Origin: Rhabditophanes sp. KR3021
Lineage: Eukaryota; Nematoda; Chromadorea; Rhabditida; Alloionematidae
Direction of reading: 5' to 3'
Length of the DNA stretch: 64,000 nucleotides
NCBI GenBank assembly: GCA_963281155.1
Contig: CAUJLY010000003.1
Location: 868,001 to 932,000, forward strand
The notes under the pieces were generated by a model. That model did not search any database. It saw only the letters and a program-made list of their open reading frames with translations, and was not told where the DNA came from. This document shows positions 3,015 through 55,717 of this stretch, piece by piece (position 1 is the stretch's first letter; each line of letters opens with the position of its first letter). The translations under genes were made by a program, and so were the position numbers.

Positions 3015-6000
3015 ATGATGATAGTAAGACATTGTTATCTGTTTCTAATAATTGTGTCACTTTCCACCTTAACCTATTGTATATTCCAACAAAAACCTAA
3101 TCAAGCTGTCCAAAAATGTATTGGGGAGACTGGGGAGTGCGGTATTGTGTTTACTTTACCAAATAAATGTCTCATTCTTCTGTTTTAGTTTGTACTGGAA
3201 CTAATGACAGAGGTACTAATTTTGCTCAACATCACTATCAAATTTTGAAGAATAGATATACGAATTGCACGAGGATTTTGGGAAATTTGGAAATTACTCA
3301 TATTGATGGGTTGAGTACTCATTTTGATGGAGAAGAACCTTTTGCTTTTTTGCATGATATTCAGGAAATTACTGGGTATCTTTTGATATTTAGTGTTGAA
3401 AATGTCAATATTAGATTGCCTAACTTAAGAATTATTTGGGGTGATCATTTGTTCGAGGGGAAAAGCTTGTATATTAGCCTACTTTTGAATGTCACTTTTT
3501 TGTCGATGCCTGTTTTGACGAAGATCGAGGCGGGAAATATTAGTATTCTAGGTGCCTCACATCTTTGTCATTTGAAGTATAAAGTGGATTGGAAACAGTT
3601 GTTGGGTGACAGGTACAAGTACTTGAAAAAATCTGACTTAATCGGAGAATACGATCAGTGTGTTCAGGAGGAAGTTCATTGCCATTCAACATGTGGAAAT
3701 AATTGTTGGGAAGATGGGCAAGAAGAATGCCAAATAGTATTTGACAAAATATGCCCCTCCGCTTGTCACGGCCACGGCTGTTACCCTCACAATGATGGTT
3801 TCAAATGCTGCGATTCGATGTGTTCAGCTGGATGTTATGGAGGTGGCAAGAAACATTGTTATGCATGTGCTAATTATACTCAAGACGGTGAATGTGTCCA
3901 AAAATGTCGAGGTGTTAATTATTTTAATACTGACAGTGGAAGGTTATCTGACTTGTCTGTGACTGATCGAAGATACACTTTCTATAGGTATTGCGTGGAC
4001 ACATGTCCTCCCGAAGCGTTGATTGAACAGGATCATTGCGTTACTAGATGCAGGAAGAATTACTTTTATAATGAAACGTTGTCGGATAGGACTTGCAAGC
4101 CGTGTGGAGATTATTGCAGCAAAATTTGCCATGTCGCAGATCCTTTGACACATTTCAATATCGGGACATTGAGCAATTGTGAATATGTTGATGGGAGTAT
4201 AATTATTAATGAAACAAATGCGCCTGCTGCTCAAAATCAAGGATTTCCTTATGCTCTCAAGTTGGAAGACTTGGATAATCTAAGAAACGTCAAATTAGTT
4301 ACTGATTATGTCTATATAATGACACGCGATTCCCAAATCTACAATCTACAATTTCTTCAAAATTTGGAAACTATCGTTGGTAGGAAGATGTACCACGACA
4401 AGGCTTCATTATTAATTGACCATAATGACAACTTGAGAACCTTATCCTTAAAAAGCTTGAAGAGTATCAAGCGAGGCCACGTCACTATCAGTAAAAATCA
4501 CAAACTATGTCTAGTGGACACTATCAAATGGCATGAAATCTTCCCCACCATTCATTTTTCAATCAGACAAAATGCAAATGCCATGTCCTGTGAAAAGAGA
4601 AATGTTCAAAGTTGCCACAGCGAATGTAGCTCGAAGGGTTGTTGGGCGTCTGATGCAGAGTCCTGTGTTTCCTGCAGTAGGTTTGTTTTCAATGGAGCTT
4701 GTACAGCCAATTGTCCAAAAAACACGTATGCCAAGGATTTTGGAAAGGGCATTTGTGATGCTTGCCACGAAGAATGTAATGGCTGTAAAGGTCCTTCCAA
4801 ATTTGAATGTGAATTTTGCAAAAATGTAGTTGTTTTTGATAAAAATGGCCAATTTCATTGTGCAGAAGAATGTCCTGCGACTCATTATCAAGTTAAGAAC
4901 GAATGCATGCCTTGCCATAGTTCGTGTTACCAGTATGGGTGTACTGGGCCATCTGATAATTTGGACAATGGAGGTTGTAATACTTGTGACTACGCAAGGG
5001 AAGAAGTCGAGCATGGGAAAGAACATAAATATATTTGCTTGGTTCATGATAAGTCTCCTGAAACTGTTTGCGAGGATGTTGGATTGGTTGGGTATTTTCG
5101 ATCTGCGACTAAGCCGAAGAATGGAAAGCATGTGGAAAAGTATATTTGCCAGAAATGTGACGAGGAGTGTGAGAGTTGTACGGGAATCGGGAGGTCCGTT
5201 GAATATCACGGATGTAAATGCAAAAATAAAATCCTTCATTTGACTGATGATCCAGAGGTTGAAAATAATGAGGAGTGTGTCAAAGATTGCCCTACTAATT
5301 CATTTATTAAGCCTGATGAAAGTGGAGCTCAAATTTGCTTCGAATGCCACAACCTGTGTGACAAGCACAAAGGATGTAGTGGGCCTTCTCTAGGTGAATG
5401 TTTTGCCTGTGAAAACGCAGGGTTCACCAATGCAGACGGTACCATAACTTGTGCCGAACAATGCAGCGAAGAATTTAAATTCTTGAATGAACACGATAGA
5501 CTATGTTATGCTGTAGATATTGCCGAACAAACTAGATTGAGAAAAAAAACGATGTGGTGGTGGTTTGGATCGAGTTTTTGTGTTGTCATGCTAATTCTGT
5601 TGATTCTTCTTTGTGTGTGTGTGAATTATAGGAAAAAATATCAGAAAGAAGTTGCTTTGAACATGCCAAGTATGCCAGATTTTGATTACAATAAGTGTAA
5701 GCCGCCAGTAATGAGGCGAATAAACCTAATTTCGCTCGATGAATTGGAACAAACCAGTAAGGTTTTGGGTGAAGGCGAATTTGGGACTGTCTATGCTGGT
5801 AAATGGAAGAACCCCATGAAAGGAACTTCGACGATTCCCGTAGCTATTAAAGTGATGAAGGCTCAAAATGCGTATGACTCAAAGGAAATTCTTGATGAAG
5901 CTGGTATGATGGCAAATGTCAGTGGAGGACACAAGCATTTGCATCCTATTGTTGGCATTTGTCTCAATGAAACTGTCCAAATTGTAACTCTACTAAGACC

Positions 6001-22732: not shown

Positions 22733-25700
22733 TTATTCAGTTGTAATTTGAATTGGTGTTCCTCTTCTGATGGTTCCCCAACCGATTAAGCGCCAATGTT
22801 TCTCGATACGTCTACTCAAGGCGATCTTTTCATTTACTTCCGTGCAGATGGGGTCAGTCAAGGCTATCTTAGCAGCATCTCCTTTAACGGCAACGACTCG
22901 GCAACCTGTTGATAAAGATCCAATATTTACCATTAAAACTTCACCCTTAGTTAATTTTTCGACTTTAGCAGCTTTTTTACCTCCTTCGGTACGTACTCCG
23001 AGAAGTCTTCTCAAAACAAAGTATGAAATCTCGATTTCAGTGTAGATGTCAGGAAGAGTACCGACAGCTCCCAGAATATGACCCACTAAGCGATCTCCTC
23101 TGCATAAAGTTGGATCAATTTGAGTTCCGACACCGATAAGTCCACCTGGTACTGCATATTGTAGTTCATTCTTCTCTGCATACAAAGACACGACTCTGCT
23201 ATAAATTGGACGGCATTGAACTTTTCCATCGGATGACTTTGAGATGATACCTTAAAATGGCAAGCATTATTAATTTAGTTAGAAGTATGTGATTTTAAAT
23301 AGTTTTTCCAAGAAGAGAAAGAATCTCCTTCTGACATTATTAGATTATTTTAATTTGATTAAATTTGATTAAGATATTCAAAGTGGTGGAAAGGAAAGAC
23401 AACTCAAGTCATGAAGGGCCAAAGAAACTTCCAAATCTTGAGACAACGGCTACTTTAAGGAAGATAGAAAAATTAGTCAAAATGAAGAGGATCCAGGCAA
23501 TCAGCATATAATCATTTAAATTTTTAGTAGTCATGGTCAAATCGAGTACGCAACTTTAAGAATGACTACAGGAGAGCCAGTTGTGATGATGTCTCTTAAG
23601 GAAGAATATGATTTATGGGTCAAGAATATTATTAAGATATTAGAGAATTTAGCAGAAACTGATGAAAGTACCTCTTATGCATTTGATTCGACTATGGCAT
23701 GTCATCCATTTTTCTTAAGTCAATTTGAGAGCATTGGAATATGTGTTACTCAATTATCCTAATTAAATTATCCTATTCTAATGTTTTTTTAGAAATATAA
23801 TCAATCTGATTGTGCAAATTATTCTAATTGTGAAAGTGATTCTGATTGTGAAAGTGTTTCTAATTGTGAAAGTGATTTTGATCTTACAACAGAATCAGCT
23901 GCTCAACAATTACATCGTGTTTATATGTTGTGACGCAAACTAAAGAAAGATGCTAAGGTTAAGTCATTTAGAGAATTAGTCAAAGAAGTTATCAGTGTAA
24001 GTTTAAATTATCAAAACTTAGTAAACTTCTTTTAGTCATATTCAAATAAATACTTTCATGATGCCAAGACTGAATCTATTGACTCAAAGATAGCTCCTTT
24101 TTCAAGATTGATAGCTCTTGAAACTTCAAACAAAATGTTTAATAAATATGCGTGCCAGTTGTCGCGAAAGGAAACCGAAATTGTTGCAAGCTTTGAAGAT
24201 GGGCAAGAAGTTGAAGCTATTGAGCATTGCATTAACTCCGTCAAGACTAATTTTGTCAATGCTCCCCAAATAGACTCTCTATTTTTATACTTTTGACTGA
24301 CAAAGAAACCGTTTTAAGATTAGGAGAATACTTCTACGAGGACCTCATTGACAATCATGATGTTTACTTGATTGAAAAGACTGAAGCAGAAAGCTATGAA
24401 TACTTCAATATGAAAGGCAAATTGAAATGCATAGCAAATGGATGCAAGTTTAACACCAATAGTTATCTCAATCTAGCAAAACATTGCAATGGGCAAGAAT
24501 GTAGACAATTAAAAAGATGGCTAAGGAGATCTACCAAAAAATCAAAATTGTGATGATGTTGACTTATGGACCAATTTAATAGTCGAGTTAGAGCAATCCA
24601 GAGCTAGGGACAATATAAAAGATACTACTGGTACTTATTTGTTGTTGGATGTTCCAGATGATGTTGTCATCAACTCATTAGCATTTATTGACCTTATCAA
24701 GCTTATCTTTTATGGTGGTGTTGCATGTCATATCAACGAATCACTTGGCTTGGAATCTGATGAATCAAGTCATGTAGTTAAAACATCCAGAAATCGTTGA
24801 AAGGATAAGTCAAATTGATGCTAAAATTTGTTGTTCTAATATTAGGCCTTTTTAATTTTTATACTTTTAATAAATGTTTGATCGCGTTAAACGGACCAGG
24901 TCTAATTTCGATTGCTTGGCCAACTTTCAAGATTCCTCTCAAGATAGAACCACCAGCTACTCCTCCTTTCAAAGTTTCGACTTCACAACCGGGCTTATTT
25001 ACGTCAAAAGATCTGATAACAATCAATCTAGCGGCAGATGTAAAATCCCTAATTGGAACAGGAACCTTCTTGCAAAGATACTCACAAACAACAGAAATAT
25101 TGTATTTCAATTGGGCTGAAATTGGGATGATTGGAGCATTTTCAGCAACTGTCCCTTGGACAAAAGACTTAATTTGGTCATGTTGTTCACGAGCCTGGGA
25201 ATCTTTAATGATGTCGATTTTGTTTTGAAGGATAAGTAAGTGCTTTAACTGCATAATTTCAACGGCTGCCAAATGTTCGGAGGTTTGTGGTTGAGGACAA
25301 GGTTCGTTTCCAGCTACCATCAAGAAGGCAGCATCCATTACAGCGGCTCCATTAAGCATAGTTGCCATGAGGATGTCGTGGCCAGGGCAGTCTACGAATT
25401 GAAACGTGGCGTACACAGATAAATTGACCTCCACAGCCTTCTCTTTCGCAAGGAAGTTTGTCAGCAAGGTGAGATCCTCCAGAACGGTAACAATTAGGTC
25501 TTGGGCATTCTTCATTAGAGCAACGGTAAATCTTAGCATTAGCATAACCCAATTTGATGGTAATATTTCTTTCTAATTCATTCTTAAATTTAACGGTATG
25601 GACTCCAGAAATGGCCTTAACTAGTGTTGATTTGCCATGGGCTACGTGGCCAATAGTTCCGATGTTGATAGTGGCTTGGCGAGAGATGACTTCCTCTGTC

Positions 25701-39647: not shown

Positions 39648-40583
39648 GGAGAAGTTATCTTTATTGATAATCATTTTTACATCAAAATTATCCTAAGGAA
39701 CATCGTACTTGTCAGAAAACTTGAACCATTTCCGTTAAACTATTGTAGATCGAGCTAAAAAATATACATGACACCTTTGCCATTTAAGCCCTGCTTTTCG
39801 AAAGTAAAGGACAGAGCTTTGCAAACTCCCCTCGACTTAGACTACATTTTTTAGCTTTTTAGTTGAGTTTTGTTGTGAAAGTAAATAACTTTCTAAGCAT
39901 CCATTTCCGTAAAATTGGAATCCTGGTCATTTCCTACTACGCGAACAGACATTACAAAGAGCTAAATTTCGAGTCATTTGCACCACAATTTCAATCAAAT
40001 AATTGTTCAAACAAAAATCTGTGCATAAAATAGTAGTTAAATTAAATGGTTTATTTCTTAGATAGTAAAATGATGAATTATATTTTTGATAATGAATAAT
40101 TATCTTCATAATGTATGTGTTTAAGTAATCTTTGGATATTTATAATAAAAAGCTTTCATTGAAAATTGGATTAAAACACTGATAAATTATTTGTATCTTT
40201 GGATTACTAATTCCAATTTTTCTTCCATAAACTTGTTCAAAAAACCATATGAGAAATTTACCTTGTGGAAGAAATAAATATGATCTTCAGACTACAGAGG
40301 TTTTCAATTCCATCAAAAAATTGTTTTTTCAAAATCCATATCGACAGAGGTATTCTGAAGAAGATTGTACAACAATGATTCATATGGAATGATTACACAT
40401 AACTGTAACCCATTTTGATTTATCTTGTAAAGAGATAGATGATATCATCTCTTTGCACATTGCCTTCCAACAATATCCTTTTAGTTTCTCATATCATACT
40501 TTGTTTATGTTTTATATATCGTAAAGGGATCTTATATCACCTTTGCCACTTTTGTTGTATAGATTAATCTTGCTATCACAACA
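39648..40583. other. intergenic stretch, nothing recognised
   Basis: AT-rich DNA without a convincing reading frame on either strand. The minus-strand frame at 39927-40109 is short and low-complexity. Confidence 0.45.
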
Positions 40584-41144
40584 TTAATGCTTGTATTTAA
40601 GCAGACACATTTGATACTTGAGGGAGATTTCTATCTTTCGTACTAAGGTACTCTTAATAAAAGTTATTGCGTATCTGTTGATATTTATAATCTTATTTAA
40701 TAACGATTCAATACCTCTGAAAAATAATTCAAATATAGTTGCTACACCATTAATCTGGCGGTTTCTATGTACATCAAAAGGTTCCGGATACTTTCCGCCT
40801 ATAATAATTACACATGTGTTACTGTTTTACACTATCAATAAACATTACCTTCTTTATTGTAACCAATTACGAACATCTTAACTTCTAAATGACGATACAT
40901 AATTAATCCAACCACAATCATTCCATTTATTTGTGCTTCCAACGAATCGTTGAGACCAATTTTGACTATTACAAGTTTCTCAATTAAAGGAACGTTGATC
41001 AATTTTGAATCCAAGGGAAAACTTTCAAGCCTAAAACATATGTCAACTAATTGTCCTGCAGCTTCAATACTTATCCCACCAGTCCTCTTTAGGACTACAA
41101 TTTCCGCTTTGTTCTCATGAATAAATTTAATATTTACTTTTTGT
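40584..41144 (-). pseudogene. fragment of an unknown gene, two spliced pieces
   Basis: Minus-strand sequence from about 41144 to 40849 is open and protein-like ('EIVVLKRTGGISIEAAG', 'DSLEAQINGMIVVGLIMY'). It meets a 50 bp intron (GTAATG...TTATAG) whose phase matches a second open piece, 40798 down to a TAA at 40584 ('GKYPEPFDVHRNRQINGV'). A stop lies just before the first piece and no ATG or good acceptor is visible there, so the 5' part is missing or broken. No family is recognised. The consistent splice and the hydrophobic pattern argue that it was once a gene. Confidence 0.4.
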
Positions 41145-47084: not shown

Positions 47085-50000
47085 ATGAAACGTAATCATC
47101 CTGACAGTATTGCAAGAGTCAACACAGAGGACAATAAGGCCCTCGAGAATTTGCGTTTATCTGGCTCACAATCCAAGTTCAATTCACTTAGCCAACGAAA
47201 TTTAGACGATAGCGAGGCAAAACGTCACACAAAAATCCACAAAATCGAGATCGAGTATGCTAAGGAAGATGTGGAGGCATTGAAAAGTAAGTTATTATTT
47301 TAAGTTTTATTTTATTAATCAGATTTTTAGCTGATTGGGGAAGCTTTATGTTAGATGGTACGACATTTGAGGACTTCGATACATTCACATTATGCAGAGG
47401 GAGAGAAGTAATTTCAAAGACGATGGTAGAGGTTCATTTAACCGAAGAATGGGCCTATTCCTCCCCATCACATGATATCCTCGTAAAAATTATTGGGGCC
47501 GAAAAAAGTGGAGAAAACATTTTTAAAATTTCAGACACAAAAGGCCTTATGATAATAGACCCATACCTCCTTATTGCCCCAACAACCATCTCAGGAATGC
47601 ATAGTTGTGAAAGGAAATCTGTGATCAAAAACTTTTTTGCCACTCAAGTTGGAAGCTCTCTACCACTGTTAATTGGTAATAGCATGCATGAGTTGTTTCA
47701 ATATCTTTTGATGAATATGAGTGGCACTATCTCTGAAAGTTTGCCATACGTCACAGCTATGTTTAGAAGCAAAGTCTTGCCTAATTATTTTGAAACTTTG
47801 GCTCTTCTGAACTTGAGTATTCCAGGATTCATGCAACAAGTTACTCCTTATATCAAAGTGATTTACGAATGGTTCAAAAATTATATGCCTAAACCTTATG
47901 GAGAAGGCAAAGAATTGAAAATCGCTAAAGGTGCCAAGCTACTCGAAGTCTTAGACATCGAAGAATCCATCCATTTGCCTGAACTTGGTTTGAAAGGAAA
48001 AATTGATGCTACAATAAAAGTGATCGATGACAAAGGAAAAGAACATCTTTCTGCACTTGAATTGAAAACGGGTAAAACTGATAGCAATGTGGCTCATGTT
48101 ACGCAGGCTAATATGTATGCTATGATGCTAAAAGAGCTTACAAAGCAAGACATATTCCCTTCCCAATTGCTTTACTTGAAGAATGGATCGACGAAAGTTA
48201 CTAAGCCGGATGAGTATATTCAAGGAGTTATTATCAGGTGGAGAAATGAATTAGCAAGATTCATGAAATTAGGGGATGATATTATACTGCCTGAAATATT
48301 ATCTGATCCCAATTTGTGTTCATATTGCGAAGTTTCGCAAGTGTGTGCTATTCAGAATCGCTTTGAAAGTAAGAAAGAAGATAAGTCAGAGGAGGGAAAT
48401 GCTTATAAGAAAACAAGTGACTATCTCAATTTGAAATTGTCAACCGTAACGGATCAGGATTTAGCTTACTTCCAACGGTGGAAAAGTTTAGTTTTAATGG
48501 AGTGGTCCGAAGCAACTAAACAGGGCGGTATAAGTACTTTGCTGACATTGACTCCGGAAGAAAGATTTGCCAAGAAGACGTGTCTTAACAACGTGAAATT
48601 GGTGGCTTTCAAATTAGTTGATAATGGGAGTGAATTGACATTGGAAACGAGTGTGTTTGATACCGAAATTAGACGCAAATGGACTCAAAATTCGTATGTG
48701 TATGTGTCAAGTTTGACTAAAGCTGCCGTTTGCAGTGGATCCATCATTGTAGCTGACGCCAATATCACTATCAAATGTAGGAGCACTTTGAATCGCTCTT
48801 TGATAATCGGAGAAGAATATCACATCGACATGGTGGAATCCAACACATTCTTTCAAAATAACCTGATGGGAATCGGAAAGTTGATGGAAGGAACTGAATC
48901 AGCCAAGAAATTACGTTCTGTTATTATTCAAGACACTTATAGTGAACCAGTAGTTGTGGAAGAAAAGGCAAGTTTGAAGGCGGTCGATCATCTTAATACA
49001 TTGCAGAAAGAAGCTGTTGAGCTTTCTTTTAAATGCGAACAGTATCATTTGATTAGAGGTTTGCCCGGGGCAGGAAAAACTACTGTTATTGCAGCTTTGA
49101 TTAATAGATACGTAGCTGCTGGAAAGAATGTTTTGCTCGTATGTTATACCAATTCTGCAGTTGACAATTGCCTTGAAAAAGTAAAGAAAAGAAACGGAGT
49201 AAATGATTATGTGATTGAAGATGATGACATTGTCCGCTTGGGTCAAGTTAATTCTGCCAAGTTTGGCAAAGCATATTGCATTACTCAAAAAATATCTAGA
49301 CAAATTAGTAACGAAAGAAAAGTATCAGAAGCTCGAAGAATTTACGAAAAGTCAAAATTAGTCCTTTCAACTACCTCTACTGTACCAACTCATATGTTAT
49401 TTGGAGTTCACAAGATATTCGATGTGTGTATAGTTGATGAAGCTTCACTTTGCATCGAAGCCAATTTGCTTATGCCTTTATTAAATGCAAATTCATTTGT
49501 ATTAGTTGGGGATGAAAGGCAACTTCAACCTTTAGTGCAGAGTGAAGTTGCTGAGAAGATGGGCATGAATGTTTCTTTGTTTGAGAGGTTGGTGAAACGA
49601 GGCAAAGGCTTGACGAGTCTGAATCATCAATTTAGAATGAATAGAGAGATTTGCAAACTACCTAGCAAGCACTTTTATAAAATGGAAATGATTTGTGCTA
49701 ATGAGGATGTTGAGAATGCGGTGATTAAATGTAAGAGATGGGAAAAGAAGGAGTGCGATAGCAAGTTACATCCAAAATTGTGTATGAAATTGTTAAGTCA
49801 CGAAATGTGTGACTCATTGTTGTTTGTTAATTGGGATTCAAGCCAAAGCAGTGTCGATCATTCCCCTGATCTTAAGAAAGAAAATATTCTTAAAGACGAA
49901 CTTGTTAAAGCAGAGATTGATTTAAAAGTTAAAGAAGAGATTGATTTAAAAGTTAAAAAAGAGATTGATTTAAAAGTTAAAGAAGAGATTGATTCAAGTG

Positions 50001-50526
50001 TTAAAGACGAGATTCCATGTGTTAGAATGACTAAAACAATTGGACGAGCAAATCAAATCAACAAAGGAGAAGCTGATGCATGTGTTGAGATGGTGAAACT
50101 CTACATCAAAAGTGATGTTAGATTTGCAGATATGGCCATAATAACTCCTTTCCGTGAACAGGTATCTCTTATTCATGCTAAAATAGTTGCTATTCCTTAT
50201 GTCGATTGTGAACTTGAAGATAGTTCGAAAGTCGAGGTTTCCACAATTGACCAATTTCAAGGCCGAGACAAAAGCATTATCATCTTTTCAACTGTATTTA
50301 ACTCGAAATTTTCACCGGTAAGTCTATTCCTTTACCTTTATTTACAATAACTTTGTCTCAGACTTGCAAACTAGTTGAAAACCCAAGAAGATTAAACGTC
50401 GCCTTAACTCGTGCCAAACACAAGCTCATCATCATTGGTAGTTTAGATTGTCTCAAAAAATTAACTTTATTTGGCAAGGTCTTGGAAGATGTTACTAATG
50501 TAATTAATTATAAAACTATTTACTAA
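47085..50526 (+). CDS. dna-2: DNA2 nuclease/helicase
   Basis: Exons 47085-47286, 47331-50317 and 50362-50526 join in phases 1 and 0 and give 1117 aa, like C. elegans DNA-2. DNA2 trims long Okazaki flaps and resects DNA ends in the nucleus. The N-terminal nuclease domain shows 'LKGKIDATI' and the catalytic ELKTGK. Cysteines for the iron-sulfur cluster are seen at MHSCERK and CSYCEVSQVC. The superfamily 1 helicase has the ATP loop GLPGAGKTT near residue 645, the Walker B DEAS near 770, 'LVGDERQLQPLV', 'VSTIDQFQGRDKSI', and in the last exon RRLNVALTRAKHKLI. Between the two RecA domains sits a Lys/Glu repeat (residues about 926-958) not expected in the family. No frame problems. DOHH follows 171 bp downstream. 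Confidence 0.95.
49913..50008 (+). repeat. in-frame 24 bp x 4 tandem repeat within DNA2
   Basis: Four consecutive units of 'gagattgatttaaaagttaa' plus 'agaa' or a close variant encode EIDLKVKE, EIDLKVKK, EIDLKVKE and EIDSSVKD. The fourth is degenerate. Being a multiple of three, it keeps the DNA2 frame. A vaguer unit (KDELVKA) precedes the array. Confidence 0.9.
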
Positions 50527-50696: not shown

Positions 50697-51718
50697 ATGG
50701 ATAATACATCTGAAGAGCATGTTGTCCAAAACGACAAAATCGGTCATTATTTTTGCGACCTCAATATGACCAATTTAACAGATCAAGAATTTTTGGATGA
50801 ATGGGGTAGAGTTTTAAACAACACGGAGTAAGTTTTAGCCATCATTTTAATTCATCCTCTTTATCCTCTTTTAGACAACCAATGAAGCGCAGATTTATGG
50901 CTTTGATGCAATTAAGAAGTGCTCCATGTAACAGAAGTGCCAATTGGATTGTGAAGGCTTTTGGTGATGAATCAGCTCTACTCAAGCATGAATTAGCCTT
51001 TTGTTTAGGGCAGATGAGAGCTACTGTTGCTATACCAACTCTATTCAGTGTCCTTGAAAAGAAGGAAGAAGACCCGATGGTCAGACACGAAGCTGCCGAA
51101 GCCCTTGGAGCGATCGGTGATTCAAGTGTTATTGCCGACTTACAAAAGTTTGCCTTCGACCCCGTTCGCGAAGTCAGGGAAACTGTTGAATTAGCTCTTG
51201 AGAGATTGAGATTCTTTAAAGAAACACCTAATGCGGCAGTTGACGGGAATGACATCCACTACAATAGCATCGACCCTGCCCCACCATTGGAAAGCAAAAA
51301 TGTATCGGAATTAGAAAATATCCTAATGAACCCTTCTGAGAAACTATTCAAAAGATACAGAGCTATGTTTGCCCTAAGAAATCTAAGCACAGATGAAGCT
51401 ATCAAAGTATTGGCTAGGGCTTTAGAATGTGACGGGGCGTTGTTTAAACATGAAATTGCTTATGTACTTGGGCAAATTCAATCTCCATTGGCAGTTGAAG
51501 AGCTAAACAAGTCATTGAAGAATCTGTCCGAACAACCAATGGTTCGTCATGAAGCTGCTGAAGCATTAGGATCTATTGGCACCAAAGAATGTGAGGCTAT
51601 TTTGACAGAGCATATTCAAGATGAAGAAAGAGTTGTTAGGGAGAGTGTGGAAGTTGCTATGTCTATTGTTGATTACAACCAAAATGGGGAACCTATTTTT
51701 GAATTTAATCATTCATAG
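50697..51718 (+). CDS. DOHH: deoxyhypusine hydroxylase (HEAT-repeat di-iron enzyme)
   Basis: Exons 50697-50827 and 50875-51718 join across a 47 bp intron in phase 2 and give 324 aa (human 302). DOHH hydroxylates deoxyhypusine on eIF5A, the last step of hypusine formation, in the cytosol. The protein is two sets of HEAT-like repeats. The four His-Glu pairs that bind the iron atoms are all visible: 'LLKHELAFCLGQ' (82-83), 'MVRHEAAEALGAIG' (115-116), 'LFKHEIAYVLGQ' (236-237) and 'MVRHEAAEALGSIG' (269-270). The extra length is N-terminal. I start at the ATG at 50697, because the longer frame upstream begins with TTG. The short gap after DNA2 suggests an operon. Confidence 0.96.
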
Positions 51719-52904
51719 GGCATTCAACACAAAACGGTACAACTGATGAGCTATATAATTTACGATGGTCGCAAGATCACCTTTCTTTCATCATTAAGTG
51801 CTTCTTTGAAATATTTTATTATGTCCAAACTATATTATTTGGGTATTCTTATAAGTTTATTAAAAAATAAATGCCTTTTAATTATCACCTGTTTTTGTTC
51901 CAACAAAATTAATAAAATAAATCATTCAAAACAAATAAGAACCGTAGCATATCATTTATTATACATTTTGGTTGGTTCGAGCAATAATTAAAAGTACATA
52001 ATATATTCATTATATCATTGGTATGTCTCCAACTAGGTAGTATGCCAGCTTATTCTTCTTTCTTGTAGTAAAATATATTTCGCTCATTCCTTTTTACTGA
52101 ATTCTTGTTTTGCCAAGATATGTGTCCTTTATAGAGAGGTGTCCCTTAAACTCGGAGTTAAATTTTGTGAATATAAAGGTGCTATTTTCACCAAATTTTT
52201 TATTAAAAGCTATAAATTCTTAATTTTTTTGTTTAAAATAATATTTGATTCTGGCACAGAAAATCAGTTTTACTTCAAATGGTCTATATAAAATATTATT
52301 TAAATGCCATAAAGTAATAGTTACACTACGTATGACTGATTTTTGATTTGCAAATTTATTTATCATACATTAAATGTTTTGCGATCAACAACTTGATCCA
52401 TGTTCACATTCTTGATCATAAAACAGCGGGTGCGATTAAAACGGTTCAAATGATAAAGATAATAAATGCTGTTCTAAAAGCAAACATGTTTGTAACAATA
52501 AAAAGCTGTAGTAGAGAATCCAAAAATATTTTGCTTGCAAGAGTTTGGATTTAATTATAATGATGTATGTTTTTGTGGAACTTATAAATGGTCTTTATAA
52601 TCAAACTTCGTCAATATTGATGTCGAACGTTTACGCCATTGCATGTAAATCATTTGAATTTTAATAAATATACTGATATCTGTACAAGGTGGATTCAACT
52701 GATTTGCAAGTACGAACCTCAAAGAACATATCAAACAAGTCAATACAGGGACAACAAAAGGATCAAATATGCTTTTGATGCATATAACTTGCTTTTTGAT
52801 AACTTAAATCTTCATTAATATGCCAAATAAACAAACTCTGGGCGTATTTAAGAAAGATGGTACTCAAATATTTCATAACATCTATTTGATTGTCTATTAC
52901 TACG
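51719..52904. other. intergenic stretch with faint coding-like debris
   Basis: No gene can be built. Short plus-strand pieces at 52348-52554 and about 52680-52800 look weakly protein-like, but stops separate them. Confidence 0.35.
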
Positions 52905-54824
52905 ATGAAAAGAAGAAATTCTATTTTGTTAACTGCTATCGTTATTGGCATTTTGTTACTATTGCCTAGACCAGGTGCGGCCGATAATACGGATGATTCT
53001 AATGAGAAAGATTGTAATAAGGAAAAAACCGGATTACTCCAATGTGTAGCTAAATGCGCAAAGGATAACGGATGCACGGGAGTTGATTGTCTTGTAAAAC
53101 ACAAAAATATTATTGCCTGTGTTCTCAAATGCGTTGCTGCAATTGACTGCACAAAAGAAGATGATAGCCACGAAAAAGATTGCAAAGATGGAAAAGCGAG
53201 CTTGCTAACTTGTATAGGCAAATGCGTTTCAAGTACAGTATGTACTGGGGCTGATTGTCTCACTAAGAACAAGAATCTAATAGATTGTGTTGTCAAATGC
53301 ATCGTAGGAATCGATTGCAAGAAACGTAAATCTAGCGAAGGCAATTCTAACGAAGACGATTGCAAAAAAGATAAAGACGGTCTTCTGAAATGTGTAGGTA
53401 AGTGTTTAACGGATAATGGATGCACAGGCGTTGATTGCCTTCTGAAGCACAAGAATATAATTGCGTGCGTTCTTAAATGCGTAGCTTCAATCGATTGTAC
53501 AAAGGAAGGTCACCATGAGCAAGATTGTAAAGATGGAAAGGCTAGCTTGTTGACTTGCGTAGGCAAATGCGTTTCAAGTACTGTATGCACGGGAGCTGAT
53601 TGCCTCACTAAAAATAAGAATCTGATCGACTGTGTTGTAAAATGCATAGTTGGGATTGATTGTGGCAAGAGAAAGTCTAGTGAAAGCAATTCTAATGAAA
53701 ACGATTGCAAAAAAGATAAAGACGGTCTTCTGAAATGTGTAGGTAAGTGTTTAAAAGATAATGGATGTACAGGCGTCGATTGTCTTTTAAAACACAAGAA
53801 TATAGTTACGTGTGTTCTTAAATGCGTAGCCTCAGTTGACTGTACTGGACAAGGTAGCCATGAAAAAGATTGTAAAGACGGAAAGGCTAGCTTGCTAACT
53901 TGTGTAGGCAAATGTGTTTCTAGTACCGTATGTACTGGAGCTAATTGTCTTACTAAGAATAAGAATCTTATCGACTGCGTTGTAAAATGTATCGTTGGAA
54001 TTGATTGTGACAAGAGAAAATCTTCCGAAGAAAATTCTAACGAAAGTGAATGTAAGCATGATAAGGATGGTCTTCTCCAATGTGTAGCTAAGTGTTTAAA
54101 AGATAATGGGTGTACAGGAGTTGACTGTCTTTTAAAACATAAAAATATAATTGCCTGTGTTCTTAAGTGCGTAGCCTCAATTGACTGCGCTGGACATGAA
54201 AGCCACGAAAAAGATTGCAAAGATGGAAAAGCGAGCTTGCTGACTTGTGTAGGCAAATGCGTTACAAGTACCGTTTGTACCGGATTGGACTGTCTTACTA
54301 AGAACAAGAATCTAATCGACTGTGTTGTAAAATGCATAGTTGGAATCGATTGTAAGAAACGTAAATCTAGCGAAGGCAATTCTAACGAAGATGATTGCAA
54401 AAAGGATAAAGACGGTCTTCTCAAATGTGTAGGTAAATGTTTAACGGATAATGGATGCACAGGCGTTGATTGCCTTCTGAAGCACAAGAATATAATTGCG
54501 TGCGTTCTTAAATGTGTAGCTTCAATTGATTGCACAAAAGAGGGAAGTCATGAAAAGGATTGTAAAGATGGAAAAGCTAGCTTGTTGACTTGCGTAGGCA
54601 AATGCGTTTCAAGTACTGTATGTACCGGAGCTGATTGTCTCACTAAAAATAAGAATCTGATCGACTGCGTTGTAAAATGCATAGTTGGAGTTGATTGTGG
54701 CAAGAGAAAGTCTTCCGAAGAAAATTGTGACGAAGAAGACAAAAAAGAAAAAGCTTGCAAAGCTAAATGTAACAAGAACAAGGCATGTGAAGATAAATGT
54801 GAAAAGGATAACAAATGCAAATAA
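52905..54824 (+). CDS. secreted protein of ten tandem 8-cysteine modules (novel)
   Basis: Single exon of 639 aa from the ATG at 52905 (the frame upstream begins with TTG). A basic start and hydrophobic core ('RRNSILLTAIVIGILLLLP') form a clear signal peptide cut near GAA-DN. The rest is ten modules of about 47 residues in five A-B pairs, joined by Ser/Asn/Asp/Lys linkers (KRKSSE...). Every module has the spacing C-x9-C-x3-C-x5-C-x4-C-x9-C-x3-C-x5-C, that is, two half-modules of the same pattern. A modules read '..DNGCTGVDCLLKHKN..'; B modules read '..SSTVCTGADCLTKNKN..'. After the tenth, a Lys/Glu-rich tail has a shorter C-x3-C-x5-C-x3-C-x5-C pattern. No membrane helix or GPI signal is seen. 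I do not recognise the family. CxxxC-paired helices suggest a disulfide-stapled helical repeat. It is probably extracellular; function unknown. Confidence 0.85.
   Translation: MKRRNSILLTAIVIGILLLLPRPGAADNTDDSNEKDCNKEKTGLLQCVAKCAKDNGCTGVDCLVKHKNIIACVLKCVAAIDCTKEDDSHEKDCKDGKASLLTCIGKCVSSTVCTGADCLTKNKNLIDCVVKCIVGIDCKKRKSSEGNSNEDDCKKDKDGLLKCVGKCLTDNGCTGVDCLLKHKNIIACVLKCVASIDCTKEGHHEQDCKDGKASLLTCVGKCVSSTVCTGADCLTKNKNLIDCVVKCIVGIDCGKRKSSESNSNENDCKKDKDGLLKCVGKCLKDNGCTGVDCLLKHKNIVTCVLKCVASVDCTGQGSHEKDCKDGKASLLTCVGKCVSSTVCTGANCLTKNKNLIDCVVKCIVGIDCDKRKSSEENSNESECKHDKDGLLQCVAKCLKDNGCTGVDCLLKHKNIIACVLKCVASIDCAGHESHEKDCKDGKASLLTCVGKCVTSTVCTGLDCLTKNKNLIDCVVKCIVGIDCKKRKSSEGNSNEDDCKKDKDGLLKCVGKCLTDNGCTGVDCLLKHKNIIACVLKCVASIDCTKEGSHEKDCKDGKASLLTCVGKCVSSTVCTGADCLTKNKNLIDCVVKCIVGVDCGKRKSSEENCDEEDKKEKACKAKCNKNKACEDKCEKDNKCK
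52997..54720 (+). repeat. 345 bp higher-order coding repeat, five copies
   Basis: One A-B module pair plus linkers repeats with a period near 345 bp: A modules start near 53000, 53352, 53700, 54045 and 54390. The first copy is the most divergent. Copies 2 and 5 share long identical tracts in the A module and the linker, more than either does with the copies between them. Confidence 0.9.
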
Positions 54825-55717
54825 AACACAAGCTATTCTAAAAAAATAACCTATTGTAATATTCTATACATAATATTATTTGTCATATATTTTTTAACGT
54901 GTGAAATAAACACAACTGCATACCATACTATTTTTGTGATATTATTTAACAACAATTTAATTCATTTCAAATCTTAGCTACAAATACAAGTTTATAGTTT
55001 AATATAAGATCTACAAATAAATTGGAGTCACCTTGCTAAACATCTTAGAAATTTACTATATTGAAGATGCATTGTCTACTGAAAATGACAAAGAAGAGAA
55101 ACTGAAGTTTGGGAAAGAAAATAGAGCCACAAATGAGAAAAGAAGTGAGGTTAAGGAAGCTAAAAAAAGTGGTCAAGAACGCTAAACACGAAGTCAAACT
55201 TGAGGTTAAACAAGATCCAGAAAATGATAAGGAGAAATATGAATTCGAAGAAAAGAAAACACAGCCTGAATAAAATTAATTTAACGTATAGACTTTAATG
55301 TGAATAAAACGCGCTTCGTTTATTTATTTTTATTGTTTTGTTAAATATTTAGCTACTTTCGTTGACAACAACTTACTTCCTGAGACATATATAAAGTGAC
55401 GTAACTTTTTGTTACTGCTAAATATGCAATATATGTACATTTACTTTGCCGGACATAAAACATCATAGTGTAAGATGATTGATATTTAGATCGTACTTTA
55501 ATCTTGAAATGTCATTTACCAATTCAGGTAACAATTTTTGTATCTTCAGACATCATAATAATATTTAGTCATACAAAACATTTTATCAACACAAATTATA
55601 CTAGATTATAGTCAGGAGAAAATGATTACAAAGGGGAAAAGATAATAGTAGAATGATTAAAAAATTAGCGTGTTTGTTGTTTAAAGTTATAGTTTAATTA
55701 GTCAATGATCAAATAGC
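54825..55717. other. intergenic stretch with a Lys/Glu-rich open piece
   Basis: An AATAAA near 54905 may end the Cys-rich gene's mRNA. At 55031-55273 the plus strand encodes a Lys/Glu-rich run ('ENDKEEKLKFGKENRATNEK', later 'KHEVKLEVKQDPENDKEKYE') ending at TAA 55271-55273. The two parts are in frames offset by one base at a run of seven A, and no ATG or upstream exon was found. It may be a 3' exon or a remnant. Confidence 0.35.

Follow-up and report, generated by a model that had tools for sequence, protein, structure and literature searches.

Polyproteins of the tandemly repetitive kind are reported to be rare in nature, the nematode polyprotein allergens (NPA) and the filaggrins being the best characterised examples, and the rationale for this organisation is said to lack a satisfactory explanation (PMC3079579). 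The NPA, e.g. ABA-1 of Ascaris, are nematode precursors consisting of tandem helical units with regularly spaced basic sites and are encoded by genes whose repeat region contains few or no introns (PMC3079579). A layout of comparable appearance was reported for the plant alpha-hairpinin precursors, such as Sm-AMP-X and Tk-AMP-X, in which five to twelve hairpins of the twin C-x3-C type with nested disulfides are located behind a signal peptide and are accompanied by a C-terminal prodomain, some of these precursors being encoded without introns (PMC7191063).

The locus presented here shares parts of both layouts. It was detected in a window of 64,000 nucleotides of Rhabditophanes sp. KR3021 (GC content 32.6%) and was searched against the genome of the same nematode (44.8 Mb, six contigs). 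On the forward strand one intronless open reading frame extends from ATG to TAA at positions 52905-54824 of the window and encodes 639 aa with no internal stop. The comparison of its 5' flank with that of the sister genes relies on an alignment of five flanks.

52697..52904, forward strand: conserved 5' flank, 67-77% identical to the flanks of sister genes with one or two modules (DNA search of the own genome)
52845-52850, forward strand: TATTTA(A) box in the conserved 5' flank, 55-60 bases before the ATG (seen in the sequence)
52905..54824, forward strand: coding sequence, 639 aa, single exon (open reading frame; dN/dS 0.05-0.10 among three copies)
52905..52982, forward strand: residues 1-26 (MKRRNSILLTAIVIGILLLLPRPGAA), putative signal peptide with a cut site assigned by inspection
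54905..54910, forward strand: AATAAA, possible polyadenylation signal (sequence)

A preliminary description of this DNA had proposed a signal peptide and no anchor, and by inspection the protein appears to have a signal peptide and no later hydrophobic anchor. A nematode protein of secreted appearance is supported, and a hydrophobic stretch is present at the protein start of the sister genes L026 and L027 as well; the ten-module protein would presumably be secreted. Its mature chain of 613 aa contains 86 Cys (14%), 100 Lys (16%) and 5 Arg.

The chain is made up of ten modules with eight cysteines each, all of which match C-x9-C-x3-C-x5-C-x4-C-x9-C-x3-C-x5-C exactly in a regular expression search, and the half-module C-x9-C-x3-C-x5-C keeps its spacing in 20 of 20 cases. 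The preliminary description gave the count, the coordinates and the spacing correctly. The strict alternation of two module classes, A and B, is real, as the mean identity amounts to 87% between A modules and 96% between B modules versus 56% between A and B. Independently of the regular expression, Tandem Repeats Finder reported a 345-base A-B unit in 4.9 copies. The earlier view that the half-module represents the true repeat holds for the Cys spacing, which is exact, but only marginally for the other residues, since the halves share 17% identity outside the cysteines. In permutations the likeness of the halves beyond Cys reached p values of 0.053 (all ten modules), 0.073 (A) and 0.073 (B), and the two modules of the sister gene L022 gave 0.14 and 0.04. 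Two further, overlapping half-module matches, missing from the original list, are located at residues 608 and 618 in the C-terminal tail, and a similar tail is found at the end of the one-module gene L027.

The key feature of the protein, which the preliminary description had missed, is a KRK-SSE site that accounts for the A-B pairs. All five Arg of the mature chain are located in this site, which occurs once per pair, after B1 to B5, and reads C-[KGD]-K-R-K-S-S-E, while none of the five A-to-B linkers contains Arg or a basic site. Hypothetical cuts at these positions would leave a first unit of 113 aa, four more of 112 aa, every one of them containing 16 Cys, and a tail of 37 aa in which there are six Cys. 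Units 2-5 are nearly neutral with net charges of -1 to +2.

52983..53321, forward strand: unit 1 (A1-B1), 113 aa, 16 Cys (repeat analysis)
53322..53330, forward strand: KRK site 1, residues 140-142, predicted convertase cut (sequence)
53331..53666, forward strand: unit 2 (A2-B2), 112 aa, 16 Cys (repeat analysis)
53667..53675, forward strand: KRK site 2, residues 255-257 (sequence)
53676..54011, forward strand: unit 3 (A3-B3), 112 aa, 16 Cys (repeat analysis)
54012..54020, forward strand: KRK site 3, residues 370-372 (sequence)
54021..54356, forward strand: unit 4 (A4-B4), 112 aa, 16 Cys (repeat analysis)
54357..54365, forward strand: KRK site 4, residues 485-487 (sequence)
54366..54701, forward strand: unit 5 (A5-B5), 112 aa, 16 Cys (repeat analysis)
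54702..54710, forward strand: KRK site 5, residues 600-602 (sequence)
54711..54821, forward strand: C-terminal tail, 37 aa, 6 Cys, C-x9-C-x3-C-x5-C-x3-C-x5-C (sequence)

The hexapeptide KRKSSE is identical among three copies of the ten-module gene in the genome. Within the gene its Arg is encoded by CGT at sites 1 and 4 and by AGA at sites 2, 3 and 5, and its second Ser by AGC, AGT or TCC. Since the changes from CGT to AGA and from AGC or AGT to TCC require more than one base change, selection acts on these residues themselves. No KR, RK or RR was found in any of six sister genes (exon 2 of L022-L025, the whole of L026, exon 2 of L027). These sequences are poor in Arg as well, with none in L026 and one each in exon 2 of L022-L025 and of L027. 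Arg accounts for 5% of the basic residues in the ten-module protein versus 31% in twelve other frames of the window; as low Arg is common to the sister genes, the placement of Arg weighs more than its scarcity.

The gene is part of a larger duplicated segment.

52218..55030, no strand assigned: duplicated unit holding the gene, about 2.8 kb (blastn against L002/L003 and L020/L021)

Two further copies of this unit, 96.5-97.5% identical at the DNA level, were detected around C1:2597999 and C1:2795188, and in all three copies (window, C1:2795188, C1:2597999) the gene is open over 639 codons. The three pairwise comparisons yielded dS values of 0.058, 0.084 and 0.086, dN values of 0.005, 0.004 and 0.008 and dN/dS ratios of 0.094, 0.048 and 0.096. 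Among the 20 same-class module pairs within the gene dS ranged from 0.23 to saturation (not computable for three) and exceeded 0.5 or was saturated for 18, while dN ranged from 0 to 0.14. High or saturated dS combined with a dN of at most 0.14 indicates that selection at the protein level maintains the modules.

Within 53013-54698, 39 of the 47 nucleotide differences between the copies agree with the base that another same-class module carries at the corresponding position, compared with an expectation of 15.3 of 47 that assumes uniform base choice and ignores transition bias. Among the amino-acid differences between the copies 8 of 10 likewise match another same-class module. This is suggestive, though only suggestive, of an exchange between repeats of the ten-module genes.

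Transposon cargo was considered and rejected for the three-copy unit, as a scan of 51700-55700 found no inverted-repeat pair joining its ends, and it looks like a segmental duplication. Open reading frames beside the copies resemble chemoreceptors by inspection, and one of the four scanned ones, at L021, matched the Srt family (1.3e-60). Two others, at L021 and L020, had no Pfam match and the one adjoining the window gene had only a sub-threshold match to Inovirus.

Elsewhere in the window a 24-base tandem repeat encoding copies of VK(E/K)EIDLK (49904-50014) is located inside a 1019-aa frame (47291-50350) that is helicase-like by inspection only. An 18-base tandem repeat was seen at 23805-23882, one frame of which reads as an acidic Cys-containing repeat. 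The DNA at 40431-40690 is a repeat and shows 81-87% identity to the sequence that flanks the two-module gene locus L008 on its 3' side.

The own-genome search (E up to 0.001) revealed at least 22 places related to the gene, including the three ten-module genes. A further four genes, L022-L025, have two modules and are nearly identical to one another; each has a second exon of 161 codons and a first-exon start, and L022 apparently contains a small intron. L026 is an intact intronless two-module gene, and L028 is a copy similar to it with an insertion and a stop. The insertion of about 66 bases (about 4060-4130) directly follows the signal-peptide codons, ends with TTTAG and starts without GT, so that L028 is either a pseudogene or contains an unusual intron. 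L027 (C6:729342) is a one-module gene with an apparent small intron, and its splicing as read from the DNA agrees with the UniRef entry P0003. Its protein ends with REDEL, which we take to resemble an ER-retention signal.

The remaining family places are 12 fragments, and all 11 that were fetched share the same start inside module 2; in two of the 11 (L034 and L038) the open frame continues into the promoter block. The fragments thus appear to stem from an internal deletion, and they lie in a dispersed repeat of more than 6 kb (L022-L025, L029-L039), which carries the two-module gene and whose longer aligned pieces are 93-99% identical. Pooled pN/pS amounted to 0.13 in L022-L025, the genes with two modules, and to 0.23 in six of the 11 fragments, so that the fragments, if dead, are recently so, or part of them is still in use. 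In L022 and L025 the dispersed repeat also contains open reading frames for a Thr-rich, apparently secreted protein of 509/516 aa and for a protein with YPDxxGxYP repeats, neither of which had a Pfam match in L022. The repeat may be of mobile origin. None of the seven other open reading frames of L022 and L030 that were scanned matched a transposase or polymerase; the flank of L025 contains further frames of 158 and 125 aa.

The proteins deposited for these genes come from the same species. A search of 5.8 billion proteins with the 639-aa query returned nothing at E up to 1 among 1289 candidates of 351-1118 aa. Two alignment queries against the same collection matched 2 of 1322 and 3 of 342 candidates, i.e. 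three distinct proteins all of this species, in a search that needs shared 5-residue words and that distant relatives in other nematodes may escape. The three UniRef relatives, A0AC35UF32, A0AC35TZM1 and A0AC35TYG6 (Rhabditophanes sp. KR3021), correspond to L027, to L026 (identical to UniRef P0001) and to the N-terminus of a ten-module gene, respectively. A0AC35TYG6 (P0002) is a truncated model in which module B1 is fused to a frame translated from the upstream positions 52505-52600; the misjoin is probably due to a repeat collapse, presumably in an older assembly. Of the UniRef names 'Cys-rich', 'TIL domain' and 'DB domain' protein, the latter two had no Pfam support in scans up to E 10 for the ten-module protein and ten single modules, E 1 for exon 2 of L022 and for L026, and E 0.01 for P0003.

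Small Tim (twin CX3C) and CHCH proteins consist of two antiparallel helices, between which C-x3-C or C-x9-C pairs form nested disulfides; they are mitochondrial, contain four cysteines and are not known to carry a secretory signal peptide. For the ten modules a significant profile match to CHCH/twin CX9C or small Tim proteins was absent: in the Pfam scan the best E-values were 0.057 for UCR_hinge and 0.11 for CX9C, both non-significant, and no small Tim model was among the matches listed. The sequence search of the PDB gave no convincing match either. The claim that no named domain has this Cys spacing is supported, as the Pfam matches remained below the cut-offs and were not sensible, and no strong domain match appeared. 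Searches of the literature on Rhabditophanes and on tandemly repetitive polyproteins, by title and start of abstract and covering few subscription journals, found nothing on this Cys-rich family. On the basis of sequence comparison the ten-module protein and its sisters are filed here as a putative new family without a named domain.

AlphaFold2 predicted four helices for the A-B pair at middling confidence, with a best pLDDT of 73.7 (47.2 for the lowest of five models; only nine related rows in the alignment). Helices were also predicted for the single module, at a mean pLDDT of 61.2. In these models helices are placed around the C-x3-C steps, in line with the earlier remark that such steps suit helices. 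The proposal that the A-B pair is the unit is borne out by the KRK-SSE site, which follows every pair and never occurs inside one, and by the existence of two-module sister genes; the higher pLDDT of the modelled pair adds a little to this. The module of L027 lacks exactly C1 and C8 (one gene), and the tails of the window gene and of L027 are six-Cys forms without C4 and C5, with loops of five and eight residues (two tails), a scheme from which the tail of L022 departs. The Cys pattern suggests a nested pairing C1-C8, C2-C7, C3-C6 and C4-C5, and the models suggest a four-helix fold of the unit.

A Foldseek search with one low-confidence model of a module returned four matches, two of which were 50-residue chains, the sea anemone acrorhagin I (E 6.5, TMq 0.38) and Ole e 6 of olive pollen (E 9.7). 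Both of these matches are non-significant, and both are single domains of unrelated organisms. One paper title refers to acrorhagin I as a disulfide-stabilised helical hairpin. The olive protein is a helical hairpin rich in Cys.

On balance we lean, with modest confidence, towards a secreted tandemly repetitive polyprotein that is cut by a convertase into five A-B units. Once the signal peptide has been taken off, a proprotein convertase would cleave every KR(K) directly ahead of SSE, and the basic residues would then be trimmed by a carboxypeptidase. The products would be five very similar units of 112-113 aa, each composed of one A and one B module with eight disulfides, and the 37-aa tail. 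Each module would form an antiparallel helical hairpin stapled by the four nested disulfides, and two such hairpins would pack into the four-helix unit. Five units per gene and three genes add up to fifteen units in the assembly, which suggests a bulk supply of a robust extracellular miniprotein. As to its role, a secreted defence or ligand-binding protein would be our guess.

In C. elegans FLP precursors 71% of the flanking sites are dibasic and 83% of these are Lys-Arg, which are cut chiefly by EGL-3 with subsequent trimming by a carboxypeptidase (PMC4196577). As Lys-Arg is the commonest cut site in these precursors, a ten-module precursor cut into five A-B units seems plausible. Similar repeated units with a regularly spaced predicted protease motif are present, as is a single open frame over ten modules, which agrees with the intron-poor repeat regions described for tandemly repetitive polyproteins (PMC3079579); L022 and L027 contain an apparent intron. 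Against cleavage speaks the context of the sites, with Cys at P4 and K, G or D at P3. As the KR is located only one residue past C8 of the B module, a disulfide could hinder the protease. Furthermore, the five KRK sites do not represent five independent events since the repeats share ancestry, and conservation in the linker is not confined to KRK but extends to SSE and further residues.

The conservation of the linker past KRK would also fit an uncut modular structural protein of the extracellular matrix, i.e. a stiff, Cys- and Lys-rich and maybe cross-linked rod in the cuticle, the eggshell or another matrix, in which KRK-SSE acts as a flexible charged linker. Repeats, high Cys and Lys contents, an apparent signal peptide and the lack of an anchor are all compatible with such a rod. 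However, it leaves unexplained why KR is present at every A-B boundary and nowhere else in the mature chain, why Arg survived switches between CGT and AGA, and why there are sister genes of soluble size with one or two modules and without the site. Nothing that was found specifically supports the matrix, cuticle or eggshell role initially suggested, and the regular dibasic sites favour a cut precursor, so that we regard the rod as possible but rather doubtful. A frame kept open by its repeats, or a pseudogene, without a working product is extremely improbable: broken copies do occur in the family, namely the fragments starting inside module 2 and L028 with its stop, but the three open ten-module copies with their low dN/dS, the divergence of the same-class modules at synonymous sites at low dN and the conserved 5' flank are not expected of it.

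Two further explanations accept cleavage and differ in the product. A lipid or small-ligand carrier working like the NPA, which are characterised by binding of fatty acids and retinol, as a narrower form of the cleaved polyprotein, draws on the shared layout of tandem helical units, regular basic sites and few introns in a nematode, but 16 Cys per unit stand against two conserved ones in the NPA (PMC3079579). Scanning the full-length protein against Pfam up to E 10 moreover listed no NPA model, and tightly stapled hairpins may leave scant room for a cavity; a carrier of this kind is unlikely. A precursor of small defence peptides after the plant alpha-hairpinin pattern, cut further down to single hairpin modules, is very unlikely. 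The multi-hairpin plant precursors and the twin C-x3-C helical hairpin, with acrorhagin I among the four Foldseek matches despite its E-value, point towards it, whereas the missing basic site in the A-to-B linkers, eight instead of four Cys per module and the nearly neutral units, compared with the positive charge given as general for antimicrobial peptides (PMC7191063), point away from it.

Returning to the cleaved polyprotein, its resemblance to both known systems appears to be one of layout. The NPA are cut at K/R-X-K/R-R, whereas the ten-module protein has its KRK shortly after a Cys, carries many more cysteines per unit, has no NPA domain and shows no detectable sequence relation to them. 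The alpha-hairpinins are plant peptides of helix-loop-helix fold with four Cys per hairpin that are released as single hairpins, in contrast to the modules with eight Cys and the predicted release as pairs; their pattern Xn-C-X3-C-Xn-C-X3-C-Xn with only four Cys does not apply here, as each of the ten modules has C-x3-C twice but also contains another four Cys, and no sequence relation to them was found. As the defining features of both were tested and are absent, the ten-module protein is neither an NPA nor an alpha-hairpinin.

More tentatively, and as something we hold to be quite possible rather than probable, it may represent an orphan, lineage-restricted class of nematode polyproteins with a new eight-Cys, four-rung stapled hairpin, a class that expanded from genes with one or two modules to a five-unit precursor by acquiring convertase sites at the boundaries of the pairs and whose units are kept alike by exchange between repeats. 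The module would then be a compact, heavily cross-linked helical scaffold without a named domain.

If the cleaved polyprotein is true, it would provide a further and independent nematode case of a tandemly repetitive polyprotein. Since this genome still carries simpler relatives with one or two modules, the origin of such a polyprotein could be traced step by step. Rhabditophanes diutinus KR3021 is described as a free-living parthenogenetic relative of Strongyloides (PMC7738172), and this culturable worm would, if so, offer the setting in which to trace it.
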